Part shown: one piece after another, positions 45,229 through 62,526 of the stretch
Layout: every line of letters begins with the position of its first letter
How positions within the stretch are numbered: position 1 is the first letter of the stretch
DNA from: Planctomycetota bacterium
GTDB lineage: Bacteria; Planctomycetota; Planctomycetia; Planctomycetales; Planctomycetaceae
Direction of reading: 5' to 3'
Length of the DNA stretch: 64,000 nucleotides
NCBI GenBank assembly: GCA_022600195.1
Contig: JAHZKX010000058.1
Coordinates: 62,001-126,000 of the forward strand
Notes under the pieces: generated by a model
Databases searched by the model: none
Seen by the model: only the letters and a program-made list of their open reading frames with translations
What the model was told of the DNA's origin: nothing
Translations under genes and position numbers: made by a program

Positions 45229-45417
45229 TCACGAATTGATCGCGTTGATTGCGTTGGCTAAATCCATCAGCTCATTGATTAAAGCGCTTCGCAATGTTGT
45301 AAGGCCAGCGATCGCACCAATTCCAATTATGGTCAACAATAGTAAATATTCAACAAAGACAGCGCCACGAACTTTTTTCGTCCATCGCCGTGATTGCATC
45401 CGGATCTTATTAAACAC
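45229..45417 (-). CDS. flp: Flp/Fap-type pilin
   Basis: 62 residues with a GTG start; AAAGGA 8 nt upstream favours it over the internal ATG at 45399. A basic N-terminus (QSRRWTKKVRG) is followed by the prepilin cleavage site G/AVFVEY, with Glu at +5 and Tyr at +6, then a hydrophobic helix (LLLLTIIGIGAIAGL). This is the classical type IVb Flp architecture, and the mature length of about 45 is normal. It should be the main subunit of the Tad pilus whose machinery lies at 53-57.7 kb. A sigma54-type promoter (45468-45483) lies about 50 bp upstream. Confidence 0.88.
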   Translation of the reverse strand: MFNKIRMQSRRWTKKVRGAVFVEYLLLLTIIGIGAIAGLTTLRSALINELMDLANAINAINS

Positions 45418-51438: not shown

Positions 51439-51492
51439 GAAGTAAGCTGAACCCAACCATCTATTGATTTGACGAGAATAAAAGGATTTGTG

Positions 51493-52926
51493 ATGGCCCC
51501 TCTTGGAATAATTTACTCATCGGACTCCAAAATGGAGTCTATTCTCAAACCGCACATACAAGATCAAATCAATTCTTCTCTTAAAACAGTCTCTACACTT
51601 TCCTCACTGAAAAATTGTATACAAAACTCACATCCGGCTATTTTATACCTCGATTTGAGAGTTACAAAACTTCCACTTGAAAAAGACAATTATCACGAAG
51701 TGCTTTCTTATTTGAGAGAAACGTGTGAATACCCTCTCAAAGTCGTTTCTGTGATAGATCAATTTCTTCCATTGGAATTCGCCGAATCGACTATTTTTTT
51801 GACAGACGCTTACCTCGAATATCCACCCGCACCTGAAGAATTTCGAGTTCTCTCCGAAGAATTAAACAAAATCAATGCCACAACAAAACCTTCGACATTA
51901 CCCAAATCCCGTCAAATTTATGATGGTGACACTCACGTAACAACTTATACACCGGCGATGATTCCCATCATTGATCAGATTTCGAAAATTGCAAAACACA
52001 ATGTGACACTGCTTCTTGTAGGTGAAACCGGAACAGGTAAAACAACGTTAGCATCGATGATTCATCAACTCTCGCCCAGGAGAACTGAACCTTTTCAAAA
52101 TATCGCATGTGGTGCACTTCCGTCTGATCTCATAGAAAGCGAGCTTTTTGGGCATTTACGTGGTTCATTTACTGGTGCCGAACGTAGTAAAATTGGTCGT
52201 TTTGAAGCAGCTGGGAAGGGGACTTTGCTTTTAGATGAGATCGATATTCTCACTGCGAAAGATCAAGCAAAGCTTCTTAAAGTGATCGAAACGGGACAGT
52301 TCGAACCTGTCGGGTCTACTGAATCTCGTCATTCTGAAGCGCGACTCATTGTGGCAGCAAATGTGGAACTTGAAGAACTGACTCAAAATAATAAATTTCG
52401 ATCAGACTTATATTATCGCTTGAATGTCCTTCAATTTCGATTGCCGGCTTTAAGAGAACGTCCTAACGATATCATCCCGCTTTCGATTGAATTTATCAAA
52501 GAATGTTGCAAACTTCACTCGATCAAGATCAATAAAGTTCACCTAAAAGTAATTCAAATGCTGCAGCACTATAGTTGGCCGGGTAATCTGAGAGAGTTAA
52601 AAAATCAGATCCAAAGAGCAGTCTTATTTTCAAATCACGGTGAATTGACTACCAATGAATTTTCTCCCAATATTCTCCAAGAAACAATCTCTCTCACTGA
52701 AAATGGCTTTCAGTCATCACAGGAGAATACAACATTAGCTGACCAGGTAGCTCTGAACGAAAAATATCTCTTACAAAAGTCTTTGTCAGAGAATGGTTAT
52801 CGCAAAACAGCAACAGCAAAAGCATTGGGGATTAGTCGAGTTGGACTATACAAAAAAATGCGGAAGTACGGGATGCTTGAGCAAAAGAAACCAACGGTCC
52901 AAAATAATCTTCACTCGAAAAATTAG
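51493..52926 (+). CDS. Sigma54-dependent transcriptional activator (AAA+ enhancer-binding protein)
   Basis: 477 residues from the ATG at 51493, with AAAAGGA 9 nt upstream. The N-terminal ~125 residues look like a degenerate receiver domain (ILYLDLRV in the place of the phospho-Asp strand). The AAA+ domain (about 145-380) has Walker A GETGTGKT, the sigma54-contacting loop GSFTGA (canonical GAFTGA), Walker B TLLLDEIDIL and arginine finger DLYYRLNVLQFRLPALRERPNDI. The C-terminus holds a Fis-type helix-turn-helix (RKTATAKALGISRVGLYKKMRK). It faces the tadC end of the pilus operon and is the obvious activator for the sigma54 promoters found here. No cognate kinase is visible. Confidence 0.93.
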   Translation: MAPLGIIYSSDSKMESILKPHIQDQINSSLKTVSTLSSLKNCIQNSHPAILYLDLRVTKLPLEKDNYHEVLSYLRETCEYPLKVVSVIDQFLPLEFAESTIFLTDAYLEYPPAPEEFRVLSEELNKINATTKPSTLPKSRQIYDGDTHVTTYTPAMIPIIDQISKIAKHNVTLLLVGETGTGKTTLASMIHQLSPRRTEPFQNIACGALPSDLIESELFGHLRGSFTGAERSKIGRFEAAGKGTLLLDEIDILTAKDQAKLLKVIETGQFEPVGSTESRHSEARLIVAANVELEELTQNNKFRSDLYYRLNVLQFRLPALRERPNDIIPLSIEFIKECCKLHSIKINKVHLKVIQMLQHYSWPGNLRELKNQIQRAVLFSNHGELTTNEFSPNILQETISLTENGFQSSQENTTLADQVALNEKYLLQKSLSENGYRKTATAKALGISRVGLYKKMRKYGMLEQKKPTVQNNLHSKN

Positions 52927-53042: not shown

Positions 53043-54044
53043 TTATTGACCGCCCGTTTGATTCTGGTTTATGACTTGTTGAGAAGTCGTGCTGATGGAT
53101 TCACCGTATGTCATCGGTTCCAGAATTCCTCCCGGGCTGTGCTCTCGAATCAGAAAATTCCTTAATTCAAGTACCGCTGGTCCGAAGAATAAAATATAAA
53201 TGGGAGGGGCCATGCAGAAAATCACAGGAAAGAGTAACTTGATACTCGTCTTACTGGAATGCTCCTCTGCACGTTGCCGATACTTACGGCGGACACCATC
53301 GGCGAAATCTATTAATGCTGTTGAAACGTTCGTCCCTAATCTCTCCGTTTGAGAGATCATCGAAGAAAGTGCATTTACATCGGGGGCATCTATTCTTCTT
53401 GCAAACTGCTTAAGAGCGTCTGACATCGAATTGGCATCTGAGTGACGACGAATGATCTCAAACTCGACAGCGATATCTGGATGAGAAAAACGAACTTCAT
53501 CTGTAACGCGTTCCAGGGCGGTCCTCAGTGGAACTCCCCCCGTCAAACACATCATAACCAGATCGAGTGCATCGGGCAGCCCTTTTTGAATTCGATGAAC
53601 TCTACGGTTCGCCTGACTGTGAAGGACGAAACGGGGAAGCCCATAACCAGTACCAGCAACCAATAAACCCACAACCAGGATTATTTGTGGAAGTTTTGAT
53701 CCCGGATCTGCCAGCACACAACCAATTCCAGTCACTATCAATACCAGCACCACGAGAAGGTTACGTGTTGCCAGATATTCGACAAGAGCCGTTGACCGGT
53801 AATAACCGGCCCTTTTGAGATCGAGCTCAATTTTTCCAATGACTTCAGCCGTCTGAGGAATTACGCCCCCCAGTGACCGACTGAAAATTCCCATTTTTGA
53901 AGTCTTGTAGTAATTCGAACTCTGAGCATCGAGATCTAGACCTTTCTTCCAGGAACGATGCCCTGCTGCAATTGCATCTCCGATCAAGAAGAATACTAAG
54001 CAGACAAGCAGAAAGGTGGCTATCGAAATAATATCAATAAACAT
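53043..54044 (-). CDS. tadC: Tad pilus inner-membrane protein TadC
   Basis: 333 residues. T2SS F-type topology: an N-terminal membrane helix (about 7-25), paired helices at about 98-140, a cytoplasmic helical domain with LPDALDLVMMCLTGGVPLRTALERV, and C-terminal helices around LLFPVIFCMAPPIYILFFGP. TadC and TadB form the inner-membrane platform on which the TadA ATPase drives Flp pilin assembly. It is last in the cpaB-tadA-tadB-tadC order, 73 bp after tadB. The C-terminal tail is Gln/Asn-rich. Confidence 0.88.
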   Translation of the reverse strand: MFIDIISIATFLLVCLVFFLIGDAIAAGHRSWKKGLDLDAQSSNYYKTSKMGIFSRSLGGVIPQTAEVIGKIELDLKRAGYYRSTALVEYLATRNLLVVLVLIVTGIGCVLADPGSKLPQIILVVGLLVAGTGYGLPRFVLHSQANRRVHRIQKGLPDALDLVMMCLTGGVPLRTALERVTDEVRFSHPDIAVEFEIIRRHSDANSMSDALKQFARRIDAPDVNALSSMISQTERLGTNVSTALIDFADGVRRKYRQRAEEHSSKTSIKLLFPVIFCMAPPIYILFFGPAVLELRNFLIREHSPGGILEPMTYGESISTTSQQVINQNQTGGQ

Positions 54045-54117: not shown

Positions 54118-55050
54118 TTAATATTCTGTTCTGAGTAGTGCTGATACCCAAAGGATGCCAATCACTTCCAGCACAATCGCGATGAGTAAGAGTATATTTC
54201 CAATGGGATCCGTATACAAATTGGAAACGTGATCAGGGAACGCAACCATTAAAATCACAAATGCAACAGGTGCAACCACCGTCATGAGCAATGCGGATGC
54301 ACGGCCAGCACCTGTCGATGCTTTCATTTGACGACGATAGTTTATTCTATCGCGAATCACTCCTGCCATTCGTTCCAGATTTGCGGGTAGATTACCACCA
54401 GTTTTACGATATAGCATTAGCGTCGAAGTCAATATTTTCAGGTCAATCAGTTGAATCCGATTTGAAAGTGACTTCATGACAGAAGGAACTGACATATTCA
54501 TATCTAACTGCCGGGCACAGCGTCTGAATTCAAAGCTCAAAGGCCCTTTTGCCTCTTCACCCACAATCGTAATAGCCTGTTCTAAACTGGCTCCAGCATG
54601 AGTTGAGCGGGCCAGTAAATCAATCATTTCGGGAAGTTCTTCCTGGATCATCTGCATTCTCCTTTTCCTGCGAAAATGCAAAACGATTAAAATGGCAATC
54701 ATTCCACAAATCATACCGGCAATTCCCGCCAAAGGCTGATCTGAGTAAACAAAAATTGCACCACCGATGGCTAATCCACACGCTACAATCAAGAGAAAAG
54801 CAGTGAACGGCGTAAGTTCAGAACCATTTTCGAGAACCAATCGATCAAAACTCTGATCAATTTTCCCAAGGATACTATTCGAGGGCTCCTGGTCAAACAC
54901 GTTCCGAATTCTTCTCAATCGAGGACGCTTTGCAAAATTTCCAGAATTAGATGTGCCTGCACCAGATATGTCGCGAACAACCAGATAGATCGCCAGAATT
55001 GTGACCGTCACTGCCGCAAAACAAATCAATGCTATCGATGAACTGTCCAC
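54118..55050 (-). CDS. tadB: Tad pilus inner-membrane protein TadB
   Basis: 310 residues from a GTG at 55050 (GGAG about 9 nt upstream); the frame extends to a TTG at 55083 without better support. Membrane helices are at about 8-26, 88-108 and 112-130, and two at the C-terminus. The T2SS-F signature is in ELPEMIDLLARSTHAGASLEQAI and RKTGGNLPANLERMAGVIRDR. It partners TadC. The 70-bp gap to tadA and shared strand indicate one operon. Confidence 0.88.
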   Translation of the reverse strand: MDSSSIALICFAAVTVTILAIYLVVRDISGAGTSNSGNFAKRPRLRRIRNVFDQEPSNSILGKIDQSFDRLVLENGSELTPFTAFLLIVACGLAIGGAIFVYSDQPLAGIAGMICGMIAILIVLHFRRKRRMQMIQEELPEMIDLLARSTHAGASLEQAITIVGEEAKGPLSFEFRRCARQLDMNMSVPSVMKSLSNRIQLIDLKILTSTLMLYRKTGGNLPANLERMAGVIRDRINYRRQMKASTGAGRASALLMTVVAPVAFVILMVAFPDHVSNLYTDPIGNILLLIAIVLEVIGILWVSALLRTEY

Positions 55051-55120
55051 TACGGGATATCTCCACTCTAATCTAAATAACAAATTTCATAACTTGGAAT
55101 CATTTCCTTAAGGTCTGAAA

Positions 55121-56455
55121 CTATTTTTTTGCAAATATCTGATCGCTGAGTTTAATTCCAGAAGCTTCCATCCGTTTGAGACAAGCAGGGCGATATCCAG
55201 TCGCATAAAATTTGCCTTGTGCATTTCCCTGATCATCAACGCCGGTTTGCTCAAAACCAAAGATATCTTCCACTTTATATTCACCCTGACTGTTCAGAGA
55301 AACAATTTCAGATACTTTAGCAATACAACGTTGCCCCCCTTTAAGGCGGGCGACATGCAGAATAATTCCAATTCCGTTTGCGATGTATTGTCGGATGACG
55401 GGTAACGGAAGTTCAAAACCGCTCATAGAGACCATCATTTCCAAACGGGCTAATGCATCGCGAGTATCATTTGCATGAATGGTTGTTAAAGATCCTTCAT
55501 GACCTGTATTCATTGCCTGGAGCATATCTAGTGCTTCAGGCCCTCTTACTTCACCGATAATAATACGATCCGGACGCATACGCAGGCTGTTTTTAACCAG
55601 CTGTCTTTGCGAGATTTCCCCCACACCTTCAGTATTATCAATTTTTGTTTCAAGACGCACAACATGTTTATGCTGCAGGATTAACTCAGCCGAATCCTCT
55701 ATGGTAATCAACCGTTCTTCTCGCGGTATAAAATTAGAAAGTGCATTGAGCAATGTCGTCTTACCGCTACCAGTCCCCCCGGAAATCAGCATACTAATAC
55801 GGGAATCTACAACTGCCGCCAGAAAATCTACAATCTCCGGAGTCACTGATTTCTTTTCAATCAGATCATCAATCTGTAAAGGAACTGTTCCAAACCTTCG
55901 AATGGATAATGAGGGCCCGTTTAAAGCCAGTGGTGGAATGATGGCATTAATTCGTGATCCATCAGGGAGTCGAGCATCGACCATCGGATTGACTTCGTCT
56001 ATTCTCCGCCCCACACGTGATACGATCCTTTGAATGATCCGCATCAAATGCTGATTATCAGCGAAAATAACATCGGATTCCTCAAGTTGGCCATTTCGTT
56101 CAACATGAATTTCATAGGCATGGTTGACGAGGATATCACTGATGGTTGGATCTGCCATCAAATGATCCAAGGGCCCTAAACCAAAAACCTCACTCAGCAG
56201 CTCATTCAGTAAGCGTTCACGATCAATACCTTCCAGAACGGAAATATGCTCATCACAAATTTCTATTGCAACAGAACGCACTTCTCCTGATAGCTCTTTT
56301 TCTGATATTTGGGCCAACATAGACAGGTCAAGTGAATCAACCAGTTCCTGATGAATTAAAACTTTTTGCTTTTGAAAATGTAGTTCCGCTTCTCTGTTTT
56401 CAGGAACAAAACTTTCAGACTCCGCAAAAAGTTTCTTTGTACCAATTGATTCCAT
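55121..56455 (-). CDS. tadA: Tad pilus assembly ATPase TadA/CpaF
   Basis: 444 residues from the ATG at 56455. This is the T2SS/T4P secretion ATPase of the CpaF class: N-terminal helical part with FGLGPLDHLMADPTISDILV and RNGQLEES, Walker A SGGTGSGKTTLLNAL, Asp box LITIEDSAEL, Walker B DRIIIGEVRGPEALDML, and His box NTGHEGSLTTIHAND. It powers pilin polymerisation at the inner face of the membrane. It is separated from cpaB by 206 bp that show nothing recognisable. Confidence 0.95.
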   Translation of the reverse strand: MESIGTKKLFAESESFVPENREAELHFQKQKVLIHQELVDSLDLSMLAQISEKELSGEVRSVAIEICDEHISVLEGIDRERLLNELLSEVFGLGPLDHLMADPTISDILVNHAYEIHVERNGQLEESDVIFADNQHLMRIIQRIVSRVGRRIDEVNPMVDARLPDGSRINAIIPPLALNGPSLSIRRFGTVPLQIDDLIEKKSVTPEIVDFLAAVVDSRISMLISGGTGSGKTTLLNALSNFIPREERLITIEDSAELILQHKHVVRLETKIDNTEGVGEISQRQLVKNSLRMRPDRIIIGEVRGPEALDMLQAMNTGHEGSLTTIHANDTRDALARLEMMVSMSGFELPLPVIRQYIANGIGIILHVARLKGGQRCIAKVSEIVSLNSQGEYKVEDIFGFEQTGVDDQGNAQGKFYATGYRPACLKRMEASGIKLSDQIFAKK

Positions 56456-56661
56456 GTGCAATCCCAAAATTTCAAAATATTGTTACTTAGGTTGGCATAA
56501 CAAACATGATCGCGATGATCAATCTCTAGTTGTCATGACGTACTTTGAGCGAAAACCATACCTTGATCGAATCAAAGATGCTTAAATTGCTAAAAATGCC
56601 ACAGAAACACAACTGCTATGTAACCGAGAACCAGGATCGAGAGATTCTAATTTTGCCGGTT

Positions 56662-57660
56662 TTACAAACCACTGGCGGGAATAGAAATCTCAGAGGTTTT
56701 ACGTTTGGTTTGTTTCATAGTCGTAGTTGCTTTATTGGAGGGGATCACTTCTGAAGCAACGGGAGTTTCAATTGCGTCTATCCAGTTTTCGTTTTTGTAA
56801 GCACGATTTCCCTTAAAGTGCACAGTATTCAGACTACCCGCACGATAAATATCCATGCTTGATACCTGCTGACTTGGTAAAAAGCCCAGGATATTGGAAA
56901 GTGTCAGACGATCACTGGAACGACCCGCCGATACGACTTCGGTATTCTCATTAGGATTACGCAACGCCATGCTTAATACACCATGGCCTTCCACTACTTT
57001 TAAAACTTTCCCCTGTTCAGGAGAGACTTCAAGCGTGATGGAATACTCTTCTGACTCACCACTGGATTTCCCGACAGTTTTATGTCCTGGAACAGCGATT
57101 TCACCGACGGCCAGAACACGAACTTTTTCCAGGAGGGTGATTGTTGTTTCCGGGATACCATCAGTGGCATGAGATCGAAACAGAACGTCAGCAATCGCGC
57201 CAGGGCGAGAGAAACCGGCGACATTCCCAATTTTATGAATGGCTACTGTCACAGCCCTGTTACCTGGTTCCAGAACATCTGAAAGACCGGGTCCCATTCC
57301 ATTTGCAAATAAATCGACCGTGTGAAAAGGTTGCCCCGCTTTGATCGGACTCTTCAGCACACGTCCCGCAATATACTGAGTGGCCATAATCCTTTGCTTG
57401 CCCTTGGAATCGAATTTCTTATCGATTGATTTAGGAGAAATTCTTAAGATGGCAATATCATCCAGCGATAATGTCTGCCCTGGAATCAAATCTCTTGATG
57501 CAATGGGTATTGTCATCATCTTTGGCTTTGCAGGATCTTCTGCGATCACCGGTGCACTGGGCTTTTTATGCAGAAACTGTCGCACTGTATAAGCAGCACC
57601 TAAACCAAGTAGAATTGCGAAAATCGCTGCGGTCATTGTTCCTGGACTGATTTTTGCCAC
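56662..57660 (-). CDS. cpaB: Flp pilus assembly protein CpaB/RcpC
   Basis: 333 residues from a GTG at 57660 with AGGGA 9 nt upstream; the frame upstream of it is not credible. One membrane helix (about 11-28, AAIFAILLGLGAAYTVRQFL) precedes the SAF domain (IPIASRDLIPGQTLSLDDIAILRI, RVLKSPIKAGQPF) and the RcpC region (GNRAVTVAIHKIGNVAGFSRPGAIADVLF). CpaB is the periplasmic factor that works with the outer-membrane secretin. No secretin gene (rcpA/cpaC) is present in the window. A sigma54-like promoter lies 47 bp upstream. Confidence 0.9.
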   Translation of the reverse strand: MAKISPGTMTAAIFAILLGLGAAYTVRQFLHKKPSAPVIAEDPAKPKMMTIPIASRDLIPGQTLSLDDIAILRISPKSIDKKFDSKGKQRIMATQYIAGRVLKSPIKAGQPFHTVDLFANGMGPGLSDVLEPGNRAVTVAIHKIGNVAGFSRPGAIADVLFRSHATDGIPETTITLLEKVRVLAVGEIAVPGHKTVGKSSGESEEYSITLEVSPEQGKVLKVVEGHGVLSMALRNPNENTEVVSAGRSSDRLTLSNILGFLPSQQVSSMDIYRAGSLNTVHFKGNRAYKNENWIDAIETPVASEVIPSNKATTTMKQTKRKTSEISIPASGL

Positions 57661-57706
57661 GTTAACTTCCCTGAAATCTTCGAATATAAAAAATTGTCTT
57701 ACCTTG

Positions 57707-57722
57707 CGCAAACAAAACGCCG
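57707..57722 (-). promoter_or_regulatory. Possible sigma54-type promoter of cpaB-tadABC
   Basis: CGGCGT-TTTGT-TTGCG on the minus strand: GG-N10-GC spacing and a perfect TTGC -12, but three mismatches in the -24 box. The predicted start is near 57696. The stretch TTGTTTGCG recurs in the candidate at 62527-62542. Confidence 0.4.
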
Positions 57723-57776: not shown

Positions 57777-58070
57777 TTACTCACTCGACGCAGAAATCGT
57801 TAAATCAAGTCCCGCGGGTGCGTCACCAGCAGAATCTGTTAGAGAATTTGAATCGACATATTCACTCGTTACACCATTTACGGTGTAGCTATAAGATTGA
57901 TCAAAACTCTCCAGAGCTACGGCCACATCACCATAATTCTGGACGATGTGATCTCTCAGAGTCGATATGCCTGGAATAATACCAATCACAAGAATGGTAA
58001 CCATCAGGACAGTCGCAAAAGGAGAAACACTTCCCCTTTGGTCACTCCAAAATTGACGAGCAATTTGCAT
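57777..58070 (-). CDS. Pilin-like protein 3, divergent
   Basis: 97 residues, ATG start. A short leader MQIARQFWSDQRG ends in the Gly expected before cleavage, then SVSPFATVLMVTILVIGIIPGISTLRDHIVQNYGDVAVALESFDQSYSY. It shares FWxDxxG, the TLRDxIVxxxGDVAxAL core and the QSYSY segment with the two neighbouring pilin-like proteins, but lacks the conserved Glu after the cleavage site, as minor pilins can. The C-terminal ~35 residues are acidic and Ser-rich. It has its own sigma54-type promoter at 58133-58148. Confidence 0.7.
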   Translation of the reverse strand: MQIARQFWSDQRGSVSPFATVLMVTILVIGIIPGISTLRDHIVQNYGDVAVALESFDQSYSYTVNGVTSEYVDSNSLTDSAGDAPAGLDLTISASSE

Positions 58071-58132
58071 CCCTAATGTTCCTGACTAAATCAACTCTTC
58101 AATGAGAAATTATTTCGAACACCATCATGAGA

Positions 58133-58148
58133 AGCATCTTACGTGCCA
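58133..58148 (-). promoter_or_regulatory. Sigma54-type promoter of pilin-like gene 3
   Basis: TGGCAC-GTAAG-ATGCT on the minus strand: a perfect -24 box, GG-N10-GC spacing and one mismatch in the -12 box. The predicted start is near 58121, giving a 50-nt leader. Confidence 0.72.
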
Positions 58149-58169
58149 AACAGTTCCCAGATGTCCATA

Positions 58170-58214
58170 AAAATGTAAAAGAGCCTGTTCCCGAGGGGGC
58201 GTCCTCGGGAACAG
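58170..58214 (-). terminator. Strong terminator after pilin-like gene 2
   Basis: A perfect 12-bp GC-rich stem (58185-58196 with 58203-58214, 6-nt loop). On the minus strand it is followed by GGCTCTTTTACATTTTT, a slightly delayed T-rich run. It separates gene 2 from the independent promoter of gene 3. Confidence 0.8.
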
Positions 58215-58243
58215 ATTCTGAATTACTCAAGCTACGCTAGAAG

Positions 58244-58570
58244 TTAACCTTCTGCCGAAGCTGGAATCGTAACACTGATACAGGCTGGCTCAGCAGCAAC
58301 ATTATCTGTGGCAGCATCACAGAAATCGAGCAGGTCGATGTAGATCGAACCAGCTGTACTCGATGTATGCCCAGTTACACCTGAAAAGCTGTAACTCTGA
58401 TTGATGTTTGAGATAGCTAAAGCAAGGTCACCCAGTTCCTGAACAACTTGATCACGAACGGTGGCCAATCCGACGACAACACCCAAAACGAGGATTGTGC
58501 CGATTAACACGAGTTCTGACGAGACAACAAAACCTGCCTCATCATTCCAAAAATTAGTAAGCATGTTCAT
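58244..58570 (-). CDS. Pilin-like protein 2
   Basis: 108 residues; AAGGAG 8 nt upstream supports the ATG. Leader MNMLTNFWNDEAG, then FVVSSELVLIGTILVLGVVVGLATVRDQVVQELGDLALAISNINQSYSFSGV in successive segments. A Glu sits at +6 after the predicted cleavage Gly, one place later than in classical Flp pilins. The C-terminal ~45 residues (GHTSSTAGSIYIDLLDFCD...) are an extra domain absent from Flp and nearly identical to that of protein 1. It is probably a structural pilin or surface fibre subunit. It is separated from gene 1 by 157 bp. Confidence 0.78.
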   Translation of the reverse strand: MNMLTNFWNDEAGFVVSSELVLIGTILVLGVVVGLATVRDQVVQELGDLALAISNINQSYSFSGVTGHTSSTAGSIYIDLLDFCDAATDNVAAEPACISVTIPASAEG

Positions 58571-58727
58571 CCTAACTCCTTATTGATTATGTGAGCCGTT
58601 AAAACAGCTCCTTTGAACATTATGATTGAAAAATTAAACAATAATCACTGGAAACGGTTCTCATCCTCAAAGTGCCAAATTTCACTAACACCAGGTTGAG
58701 AACTCACCCAAAAACCGATATCGAAAC

Positions 58728-59048
58728 TTAACCTTCAGGTTCAGCGACTACGACAGCGATACAGTGCGCAAAATCACCTGCATTATCTGGTCCGTCACAG
58801 AAGTCTAAAAGGTCGATAAAGATAGACCCTGCTGTGCTTGATGAGTGCCCTGTGATTCCAGAGAAAGAATAGCTCTGGTTGCTGTTTGCGAATGCAGCGG
58901 CAACGTCTGCCAATTCTGCGATTACCTGATCACGAAGTGTAGTTAACCCGACAATCATACCGAGAACCAACACAGTAGCGATCAGCACTAGTTCTGTTGA
59001 AACGACGAAACCATTTTCATCATTCCAAAACTGCTGAAACATCTTCAT
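58728..59048 (-). CDS. Pilin-like protein 1
   Basis: 106 residues from the ATG at 59048 with GGAG 8 nt upstream; the open frame begins 5 codons earlier. Leader MKMFQQFWNDENG, mature start FVVSTELVLIATVLVLGMIVG, then TTLRDQVIAELADVAAAFANSNQSYSFSGITG and HSSSTAGSIFIDLLDFCDG. It is about 65% identical to protein 2 by eye over the shared length. It is the first gene behind the sigma54-type promoter at 59173-59188. Without a terminator after it, gene 2 is probably co-transcribed. Confidence 0.78.
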   Translation of the reverse strand: MKMFQQFWNDENGFVVSTELVLIATVLVLGMIVGLTTLRDQVIAELADVAAAFANSNQSYSFSGITGHSSSTAGSIFIDLLDFCDGPDNAGDFAHCIAVVVAEPEG

Positions 59049-59172: not shown

Positions 59173-59188
59173 AGCAGACGATGTGCCA
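59173..59188 (-). promoter_or_regulatory. Sigma54-type promoter of pilin-like genes 1 and 2
   Basis: TGGCAC-ATCGT-CTGCT on the minus strand: a perfect -24 box, exact GG-N10-GC spacing and one mismatch in the -12 box. The predicted start is near 59162, with a 114-nt leader before the ATG at 59048. Confidence 0.75.
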
Positions 59189-59496
59189 TTTTGACCCACA
59201 ATGCATATTTTTCGCAATTTCACTCTATAATGAACTTTATGAGCAATAGGGCTAAGAGAAATTTGCGTTACAGTCCCTAAAATCAGTAGCAATCGGCTAA
59301 TAGGTATGATTCGAGCAAAATTGAGCCGCCCGCAACTCAAAGCAGGGCGATCGCAGACCCTGTATCCAATGGTTAACACTTTGAACACGCATGTAACCTT
59401 CGGTGCACAACCTGATTGACATGTTGAAAGCAGCCAGATGTAATCGGATGAGTATCACGATTTTGAGCAAATCGTCTTCAGCTCACTGCAACAGTA
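59189..59496. other. Upstream region of the pilin-like genes
   Basis: No gene is accepted. A minus-strand frame (59143-59388) runs across the promoter and is spurious. An activator-binding enhancer would be expected here. I find no copy of the 45561-45613 inverted repeat. Confidence 0.4.
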
Positions 59497-60687
59497 TTAT
59501 TGGTCCTGCTGAGATATGTCGACCTGAGAGGGAAATTTCCCTCTCCATAACGCAAGGGCGCGCCCTGCGTGAGATAAAAATGTGTAGCTGCTTTTTATCT
59601 CTGATTCAGGCATCGCTTTGATACTGTTGACAAGCCAATGTCCCGCTTTCTTAAGCGTTTCCTCAGGTGGTTGAACCTCTTCTGGTGCCAACGCCCACCA
59701 CTCCATCGCATGCCCCGTTGCTAAAATCCGCCGCGCGCGAGGAGTAAATGATTTTTCAGATGACAATTCCAGCTTTCTGCCATCCCAATTCTTATCCCAA
59801 TATCCCTCTTTCGCCTGAGTTTTTACAAGCAAAGCTGTGATGTTTTTCAAATACAGTATAATCTTTTCTCGCCCTTGATCTGTCAGAATGGGGGCTTGTT
59901 CATCAACCCTTAACAGCATGACCAAAGCGTGCAATCGATGTTTTCCATAACAAACCCCTTTTGTGGGCTGTTGGCGCATTATCCGCTCTGCAATGAGATC
60001 AAAATTAACGAGTTGTCCTTCGGTTGTCATCCAATCTTGAGGGGACTGAAGATACAGGGCAAATACAAGAGTGGACCACTCATATTCCAACTGATTCAAA
60101 CTGAATGAGCTTAAAGTTTCCTGAATCATCGCCGCCAGGGTCGTTTCCCCATTTGGTGTGACAACAGGGTAGTCGGCAGGGGTCCCCACTTCAGCAAGAG
60201 TTGCTAAAGTATGATCTTCATGACTCGAACTTGCCAATCCGTCCTGAACGCGTGGCTTGATTCCATATTGATTTTGAACGAGCAGAGGTTTGGATTTCTC
60301 CCCCCATACCTGGTTAAAACTACGATGGTCCAGCAGAATATCACGCATTTCAATCCCTGAAAGAGATTTTGGATCGTCAAAGGTCGCCTCAATCCCCCAG
60401 AATCGTAGTGCATGATCCACGTGATTAATACGAGGTGTTGTCCCCCTGAACTGAGGACGCAAACGATAAAGTACACCTGCGAGATCTTCATCCGAAACGA
60501 TGCTGGGACGATCATAAAGCGGAGTCACTTTAAGAGGATTCAATCGTATTTGCGGTAATTGCTTCTGTTCTTCCCATGAATGAAATCGAACTGCCCCCCA
60601 GCCAATGGCTGCACTGACCAATAGAATATGGAACCCGAGATAACAGGCAACACTCAATTTTTTTCGAAACGGTGTCTTGGTCTGCAT
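59497..60687 (-). CDS. Membrane-anchored protein with alpha-barrel-like repeats, unknown function
   Basis: 396 residues. One membrane helix at about 10-32, the rest probably outside. The body is helical, with segments such as EGYWDKNWDG and ATGHAMEWWALAP that resemble squalene-cyclase/prenyltransferase-type alpha-alpha repeats; no catalytic motif is seen. Its ATG overlaps the stop of the upstream gene in TAATG, so the two are translationally coupled. Function is unknown; the location suggests a link to the pilus or cell envelope. Confidence 0.6.
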   Translation of the reverse strand: MQTKTPFRKKLSVACYLGFHILLVSAAIGWGAVRFHSWEEQKQLPQIRLNPLKVTPLYDRPSIVSDEDLAGVLYRLRPQFRGTTPRINHVDHALRFWGIEATFDDPKSLSGIEMRDILLDHRSFNQVWGEKSKPLLVQNQYGIKPRVQDGLASSSHEDHTLATLAEVGTPADYPVVTPNGETTLAAMIQETLSSFSLNQLEYEWSTLVFALYLQSPQDWMTTEGQLVNFDLIAERIMRQQPTKGVCYGKHRLHALVMLLRVDEQAPILTDQGREKIILYLKNITALLVKTQAKEGYWDKNWDGRKLELSSEKSFTPRARRILATGHAMEWWALAPEEVQPPEETLKKAGHWLVNSIKAMPESEIKSSYTFLSHAGRALALWRGKFPSQVDISQQDQ

Positions 60688-62432
60688 TAGGGCTGTACCT
60701 CGCTCTCTGATTTGTCAGCCGCAGTTTTATTACTGTCTTGTTTCTCTTTCACAGCTGAAATCAGCTTAGGTTCGCGAGTCACGACTATTCCGAGATCATC
60801 TTCATAAACTATTTCAAATCCTTTTAATCTGCGAACTTGTTCGTCCAGTTTGACCTGTTTTTCTTTATGAACAATAAACGTGGAAACGTTATACTTTTCT
60901 GCCGCCGACTGCCATCCCCGATTCGCTCTTGCGATTCCCAGGTAATCCTTCCAGACACGGGGAGGTGATAAATGCACAGCATTCGTCGTCATAAAAACAT
61001 TCATTCCAGGCGGGCCATCCCAAACCAACCAGTCGCCCCACCATTGAGGATTCCAAACCTGCCCCTGAGGAGGGTGTAACTTTAAAAATTCTGTTAACTT
61101 TCGAGGCGTTCCCTGGCTATAAATTTTGTCTATTTTGCGAGGCGTGCCACCGAAAAGGGGAGTTGCGATATTGGAAAAAGCAAAACCAAACCAAATAATC
61201 AAGACACAAAATGCTGTAATTACAGGCGATTTTTTAGCCCAAAACGACATTTTTTCCGATGTTCCCGTAGCCTGGCTTTGCCCTTGCTGTCTCTTTCCAG
61301 GCATGACATTCGCCAAATGGGGAACCATGGCATAGACAAAAACTACCGAAAACCAACCAATCATCCGGACGCCAATAATCACTGCCAATGAGAGCAGCCC
61401 GACACGCAACACATCTGCTGTTCGGATTGCTTCCCGGCTACGCCGAAAAAGACCCAGCATCAATACCCATGAGGCGCAGAACCAGATTCCTTCCGCATCC
61501 CGAAACTCAAGAGGTTCCCACTCCAAAACATCTTTTAAGTTCGGATTTCGTGGAAATGTGAGAGAGTTGATAAACAAATCAATGTGATAGGGATTGAGCA
61601 GAGCCCCACAGACAGACAACTCAGTGACCACTAGCCAGCGCCTGACCCATTTGTCACTACAGATTTCAATCAGACTGCGTGTTCGCCAGCCAACTTCGAT
61701 GACCCTTCCCAGGAATTGCAGACCCAGTATTGCCAGTCCCACAACAAAAGATCCATGTAGATTCGCCCATGCCAGAAAAATCAATGGGATACCGAAATAT
61801 AATGAAATTAACAACGTTTTTGGTATTTTTTGAGTTTGCTTGAGGGAGTGATCGAGATCGTCTTCAGGCAGTAAATTTGATTTGATGGAATCGTATTTTT
61901 CCGACCAGGCCATGATAACGAGTAAAATCGCCACACATAAAGTTCCAAATATTTCCGGCCTGATGATCGCAATCCGACTCGAAGCGATGACCACAAGCAG
62001 AAATGAGGCTAATGTACTCACACCAACTCTGCCGGATTTCAGATAGAAGGCGAACCAGAACAGAACATGCGTCGTGAATACAGTCAACGCAAAAATATGT
62101 GATAAACCTCGCACTCCCCAAACGCCATTGATTTTGGCAAAAATAATCTGTGAGAGCCAGGCGGCATCGATGCAGCGGACCCCTTCTGCGAGGGAGAGAA
62201 AAGGATCGTATTGTGGCAAAGACTGATTCGCTAAAATCCAATCCCCATAGGAAACATGTCCCCAGATGTCCGAGTAAAAAATGTGGACATTGCCAAAATA
62301 GAAAAACATTGTCGCAAACCACAGACATGTGATTAATTGCGGCCAGCCCATTGAAAGCAGTTCGCGATGCGAACGCTTCACTTTCACCGAAGTCAAAGAT
62401 TGTACTGAACCAGGATGGGAATCCACCGACAT
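60687..62432 (-). CDS. Polytopic membrane protein, GT-C-glycosyltransferase-like topology
   Basis: 581 residues from the ATG at 62432, with GGAAGG just upstream; a GTG 12 bp earlier is in frame. About 9-11 membrane helices are followed by an exterior C-terminal part (from about 430). The first loop contains YSDIWGHVSYGDWIL, which recalls the acidic motif in the first loop of GT-C glycosyltransferases. The C-terminal stretch includes GQVWNPQWWGDWLVWDGPPG, and the tail is Lys/Ser/Asp-rich. The gene is coupled to the next one (TAATG). A sigma54-like promoter is at 62527-62542. Confidence 0.62.
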   Translation of the reverse strand: MSVDSHPGSVQSLTSVKVKRSHRELLSMGWPQLITCLWFATMFFYFGNVHIFYSDIWGHVSYGDWILANQSLPQYDPFLSLAEGVRCIDAAWLSQIIFAKINGVWGVRGLSHIFALTVFTTHVLFWFAFYLKSGRVGVSTLASFLLVVIASSRIAIIRPEIFGTLCVAILLVIMAWSEKYDSIKSNLLPEDDLDHSLKQTQKIPKTLLISLYFGIPLIFLAWANLHGSFVVGLAILGLQFLGRVIEVGWRTRSLIEICSDKWVRRWLVVTELSVCGALLNPYHIDLFINSLTFPRNPNLKDVLEWEPLEFRDAEGIWFCASWVLMLGLFRRSREAIRTADVLRVGLLSLAVIIGVRMIGWFSVVFVYAMVPHLANVMPGKRQQGQSQATGTSEKMSFWAKKSPVITAFCVLIIWFGFAFSNIATPLFGGTPRKIDKIYSQGTPRKLTEFLKLHPPQGQVWNPQWWGDWLVWDGPPGMNVFMTTNAVHLSPPRVWKDYLGIARANRGWQSAAEKYNVSTFIVHKEKQVKLDEQVRRLKGFEIVYEDDLGIVVTREPKLISAVKEKQDSNKTAADKSESEVQP

Positions 62433-62526
62433 AACACCTTCCACTCATAAAACGGACGTAACCTCTTATGCTACGTCAAAAATCCAGACTTTTTCTGGCC
62501 CATTTGAAAAGATTCAGGAGTAGTCC

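Follow-up and report, generated by a model that had tools for sequence, protein, structure and literature searches.

In Caulobacter, Glu5 and Tyr6 of the pilin PilA form the hydrogen bonds of the filament core (PMC11067988). KilP, the major pilin of the Myxococcus Kil Tad pilus, is a 97-aa protein; in the modelled filament its helix leads into an unfolded region exposed at the surface (PMC12075869). Some planctomycetes bear fibres that are believed to arise from crateriform pits and to bind polysaccharides (PMC8303584); we found no paper naming the subunits of these pit fibres, and no description of the family reported here was found in the literature on planctomycete Flp pilins.

We analysed a 64,000-nt stretch of DNA from a Gimesia-like planctomycete (hereafter the window) carrying three tandem prepilin-like genes, P1 to P3. 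Like Caulobacter PilA and the canonical Flps, their products start with a short leader whose last residue is Gly, continue as a single long hydrophobic helix, which in P1 and P2 has a Glu near its start, and are accompanied by a Tad machine with CpaB/CpaF/TadB/TadC (PMC11067988). P1 and P2 differ from PilA in that the Glu stands at +6 instead of +5 and is followed by Leu or Ile instead of Tyr (PMC11067988). Their mature length is 93–95 aa against 45 aa, they carry a Cys-bounded variable tail, and they do not match Flp_Fap. The trio is similar to KilP in total length and in its Tad machine (PMC12075869), whereas KilP keeps the G/XXXXE signature (Glu at +5) and the planctomycete set consists of paired ELx pilins plus a Glu-less third gene. 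We propose, with a probability of about 0.7, that the trio supplies the structural subunits of a Tad (type IVc) pilus in this planctomycete. The family to which the trio belongs is absent from the protein-family libraries searched, and it departs from the known pilins at the very residue by which Tad assembly is anchored. It offers concrete candidates for planctomycete fibre subunits, and its core with Glu at +6 and no Tyr tests how strictly Tad assembly needs the Glu5–Tyr6 pair.

The trio and the surrounding tad genes

The minus-strand ORFs were read directly, and the three genes were found where a preliminary description of this DNA had placed them. The features considered below are as follows.

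58728–59048, minus strand: P1, ELx-type prepilin of 106 aa, leader MKMFQQFWNDENG, mature part 93 aa, two Cys, Glu at +6
58244–58570, minus strand: P2, ELx-type prepilin of 108 aa, mature part 95 aa
57777–58070, minus strand: P3, Glu-less and Cys-less prepilin of 97 aa, mature part 84 aa, of a separate conserved subfamily
56662–57711, minus strand: cpaB/rcpC, Tad pilus assembly protein (PF16976, TIGR03177)
55121–56467, minus strand: tadA/cpaF motor ATPase (PF00437; best NCBIfam match TIGR03819, 337 bits, just below the cut-off of 373)
54118–55083, minus strand: tadB-type inner-membrane platform protein (PF00482; B/C name from gene order)
53043–54044, minus strand: tadC-type inner-membrane platform protein (PF00482; B/C name from gene order)
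51469–52926, plus strand: sigma-54 enhancer-binding activator, convergent with tadC (Pfam scan)
45229–45417, minus strand: short Flp-like ORF of 62 aa, GAVFVEY, Glu at +5 (match to the P1 core, E = 1.4e-4)
59173–59189, minus strand: sigma-54-like −24/−12 element ATGGCACATCGTCTGCT; the internal P1 ATG at 59042 lies 147 nt downstream (element coordinates derived from this offset); 10 of 13 consensus positions
58133–58149, minus strand: sigma-54-like element TTGGCACGTAAGATGCT, 79 nt before P3, 12 of 13 consensus positions

Good ribosome-binding sites precede P1 (AGGAG, 5′ of the ATG at 59048) and P2 (AAGGAG, 5′ of the ATG at 58570), and P1 contains a second, internal ATG at 59042 (MFQQ). All 13 Gimesia loci examined retain the three genes in unchanged order; judged by these orthologues and by dN/dS values of about 0.002 to 0.29 depending on the region, P1–P3 are real genes. 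Each leader comprises 13 residues and ends in FWxD(E/Q)xG, with the long hydrophobic helix next; the motif given earlier, FWxD(E/Q)xxG, was in error, as one residue and not two separates E/Q from G. The mature lengths counted after this Gly (93, 95 and 84 aa) agree with the range of 84–95 reported before, and the Glu at +6, followed by Leu, in P1 and P2 and its lack in P3 were likewise read correctly. P1 and P2 do share the near-identical block noted in the preliminary description, SYSFSG(I/V)TGH(S/T)SSTAGSI(F/Y)IDLLDFCD. We rejected the view that they end at IDLLDFCD with a single Cys: both continue for about 20 residues, including a second Cys (HCI/ACI), and the two Cys are kept in 13/13 orthologues of each protein. 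P3 has no Cys.

The trio stands at the head of a compact cluster, with cpaB, tadA, tadB and tadC downstream on the same strand; co-encoding with these four genes is one of the features by which Tad pilins are recognised. The order trio-cpaB-tadA-tadB-tadC-activator is kept in three other Gimesia-like genomes, each with an ORF similar to the activator at the equivalent place, and a fourth locus has the same trio/tad order as far as its contig extends; the genes of these four loci were identified by sequence and position. No secretin, TadZ, TadE/F or peptidase was recognised inside the trio–tad cluster. Searches of the same genome, together with individual contig stretches, revealed a secretin, a TadZ-like protein, CpaB, Flp and a peptidase on contig C68, a peptidase, TadE, CpaB and TadA on contig C73, TadA with two genes after it on contig C39, and four A24 peptidase matches in all. 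In this second tad cluster, that of C73 (L038 4344–5744; G000:C73), the TadA gene is interrupted by one in-frame TAG, reflecting either a pseudogene or a sequencing error. The Flp-like ORF at 45229–45417 could encode an accessory pilin belonging to the trio's system. Two genes upstream of the trio (window 59497–62444) encode products of 396 aa and 585 aa, of which the longer looks membrane-spanning; neither has a Pfam match, both genes are syntenic with the trio in two of the other Gimesia-like loci, and a part in pilin modification is no more than a guess.

The sigma-54-like element of P1 lies 146–147 nt before the MFQQ codon in 13/13 Gimesia loci, and a related P3 element lies roughly 77–104 nt upstream in all 13, although these loci are related and their conservation does not amount to 13 independent events. 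Within the window, elements scoring at least 10 occur at a background rate of 0.094 per kb and strand. Matches at 12 of 13 consensus positions also precede family members at two other loci, and rpoN was found in the genome. The motifs suggest that the cluster is probably switched on via sigma-54 and the adjacent activator.

Family relationships and conservation of the pilins

Of 59 class genomes sampled, 30 contain members, the highest copy number being about 20 per genome; the family surmised earlier is confirmed and has proved much larger than the sequence alone could show. The P1 query retrieved relatives from 32 genomes of a 392-genome phylum sample, all belonging to the window's own class. 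By a count made by eye, 17 of the 30 class genomes having the family carry a member no more than about 1 kb upstream of a same-strand cpaB, and three further genomes with a distance of about 1.5 kb bring the number to 20. Two subfamilies were distinguished, the ELx type of P1 and P2 (alignment A3) and the Glu-less P3 type (alignment A4), whose profiles match each other at 99.5% probability; many genera include a P3-type orthologue in their tad-linked sets. Gly −1, which marks the class III leader of Tad pilins, is invariant in alignments A1, A3 and A4, and Ser +4 and Glu +6 are also invariant in A3. A pattern scan that admitted Glu at +5 or +6 but demanded Leu or Ile next returned 73 sequences, including a spurious match of 29 aa, and all had Glu +6 and Leu/Ile +7. 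Exactly two Cys occur in 52/73 of these sequences, at variable spacing, and the residue after Gly is Phe in 67/73. Cleavage after Phe +1 would restore a Glu at +5, but we consider it less likely, given that the Gly never varies whereas the residue after it does.

The canonical Flps of the same genomes mostly read GPTAVEY, with Glu +5 and Tyr +6. No Pfam or NCBIfam pilin model matched P1–P3 at its cut-off, the best being Flp1_like (E = 0.011), and Flp_Fap (PF04964) gave no match; Pfam and NCBIfam names were dropped, these matches being weak and far under cut-off. An hhalign comparison of the family profile with the local canonical Flps was weak (4% probability), and a search of solved structures yielded no relatives, only one chance-like match (E = 0.97). 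We tested for the Glu +5 followed by Tyr that defines Flp and found Glu +6 followed by Leu in P1 and P2 and no Glu in P3, and therefore the trio is filed, by its sequence, as a divergent Tad-linked pilin family apart from Flp proper. The earlier proposal of subunits distinct from Flp thus holds at the level of sequence (Flp_Fap does not match, Glu +6 is invariant and no Tyr adjoins it), but not in the sense of another kind of fibre, since linkage to the Tad machine makes a divergent Tad pilin family the better reading. A length of about twice Flp, offered as a further cue, is not distinctive by itself, as KilP has 97 aa (PMC12075869).

Constraint is unevenly distributed along the proteins. Across the 13 Gimesia loci the first 45 mature residues of P2 are identical, and dN/dS of the helix is 0.07 for P1, 0.002 for P2 and 0.10 for P3, whose helix is under less constraint than that of P2. 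The block up to DFC gives 0.05 (P1) and 0.10 (P2), and the tail after DFCD 0.29 (P1) and 0.23 (P2). A nearly frozen helix with a variable Cys-bounded tail fits a buried core and an exposed surface. AlphaFold models P1 as a single helix (residues 18–57, confident over about 20–50) with a low-confidence tail (pLDDT about 44–57; shallow alignment of 16 rows), and P3, also from a shallow alignment, as a weaker helix with a possible hairpin and a low-confidence tail. The extra C-terminal domain proposed in the preliminary description finds no support in these models, and a folded domain was set aside; it is at best a Cys-bounded tail. The two conserved Cys of P1 and P2 fit a loop like the disulfide-bounded D region in the globular domain of type IVa/IVb pilins, but no beta-sheet domain was predicted with confidence.

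A candidate Tad filament and competing explanations

What the sequence establishes is gene order, synteny, family membership, the invariance of certain residues, a gradient of conservation and motifs resembling promoters. The view of the trio as surface-fibre subunits gains support because it heads the cpaB-tadA-tadB-tadC cluster and members lie close upstream of cpaB in 17 of 30 class genomes with the family. In the Tad pilus that we favour, a prepilin peptidase from another locus would cleave after the conserved Gly, and the helices of P1 and P2, about 45 residues long, would pack as the filament core, driven by TadA, TadB and TadC, with the Cys-bounded tails coating the exterior. P1 and P2 probably act as co-major or alternative major subunits. 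CpaB would guide the fibre to its secretin, which is probably one that another tad locus also uses. Several results speak against this model: no pilin model of Pfam or NCBIfam fits at its cut-off, the profile resemblance to canonical Flp is weak, the Glu is shifted and the Tyr missing, and no secretin, TadZ, TadE/F or peptidase was recognised in the cluster. Some tip-initiating minor pilins of the GspK/PilX type, in type II secretion and type IV pili, lack the N-terminal Glu. By analogy with type IV minor pilins, P3 is probably a minor, initiating/priming or tip pilin: it resembles the GspK/PilX type in the loss of Glu, and differs in being small, in having no large globular domain and in being a sequence sister of P1 and P2.

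A more specific form, which we regard as tentative, is a distinct Tad filament with a rewired core, in which the near-identical majors co-polymerise on a P3 initiator and unlinked arrays supply exchangeable tails or tips to a shared machine. With the Glu one residue later and no Tyr, the Caulobacter-type hydrogen-bond network could not form as such in this filament.

It is rather unlikely, in our estimate, that P1–P3 are instead minor or tip pilins on a filament of canonical short Flp, built from the ORF at 45229–45417 or the Flps of C68 or C40. Canonical Flps do occur in the same genomes, a short Flp-like ORF lies 8 kb past the cluster and another about 12 kb from the trio in genome G381, and Myxococcus has several minor-pilin sets forming exchangeable tips (PMC12075869). 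The identity of the P2 core in all 13 loci, however, fits a densely packed major subunit better, and two near-identical ELx pilins with a Glu-less third resemble majors plus a minor. Slightly less probable still is a short periplasmic secretion apparatus run by the tad-like genes, with the trio as pseudopilins and no external pilus. An external fibre would indeed need parts from other loci, given the lack of a recognised secretin, TadZ or peptidase in the cluster, but the cluster has kept CpaB, which takes part in Tad pilus assembly, and the frozen core with its variable tail is like that of abundant filament subunits. Pseudopilins usually have larger globular domains, which P1 and P2 lack. 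That the proteins are small signal-anchored membrane proteins which never undergo processing into a filament seems very improbable: orphan copies far from tad genes would suit it, whereas two findings argue against it, namely that Gly −1 and Glu +6 do not vary even among divergent members and that the genes are linked to cpaB-tadABC.

Copies outside tad clusters

The sampled other Gimesia genomes have 14–20 members each, many of them away from tad genes, which prompts one to ask whether pilins are exchanged on a single machine. Four orphan ELx pilins form a tandem array in G381 (L088 7757–10500), around which no tad genes were recognised. Tandem arrays of about ten orphan ELx pilins were found at G181:C1:5120045–5125592 and G227:C1:5178885–5184599, far from the cpaB genes found in those genomes. 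An orphan pair at L086 6912–7792 adjoins ORFs like fliS and fliD, named by sequence appearance, and a near-identical pair lies at L087 6903–7783. The window's own genome contains two orphan members with long tails (L003 1213–1701 and L005 1309–1764), one tail being Lys-rich and the other carrying CxxC motifs (PCQICKPGE...CPHC).
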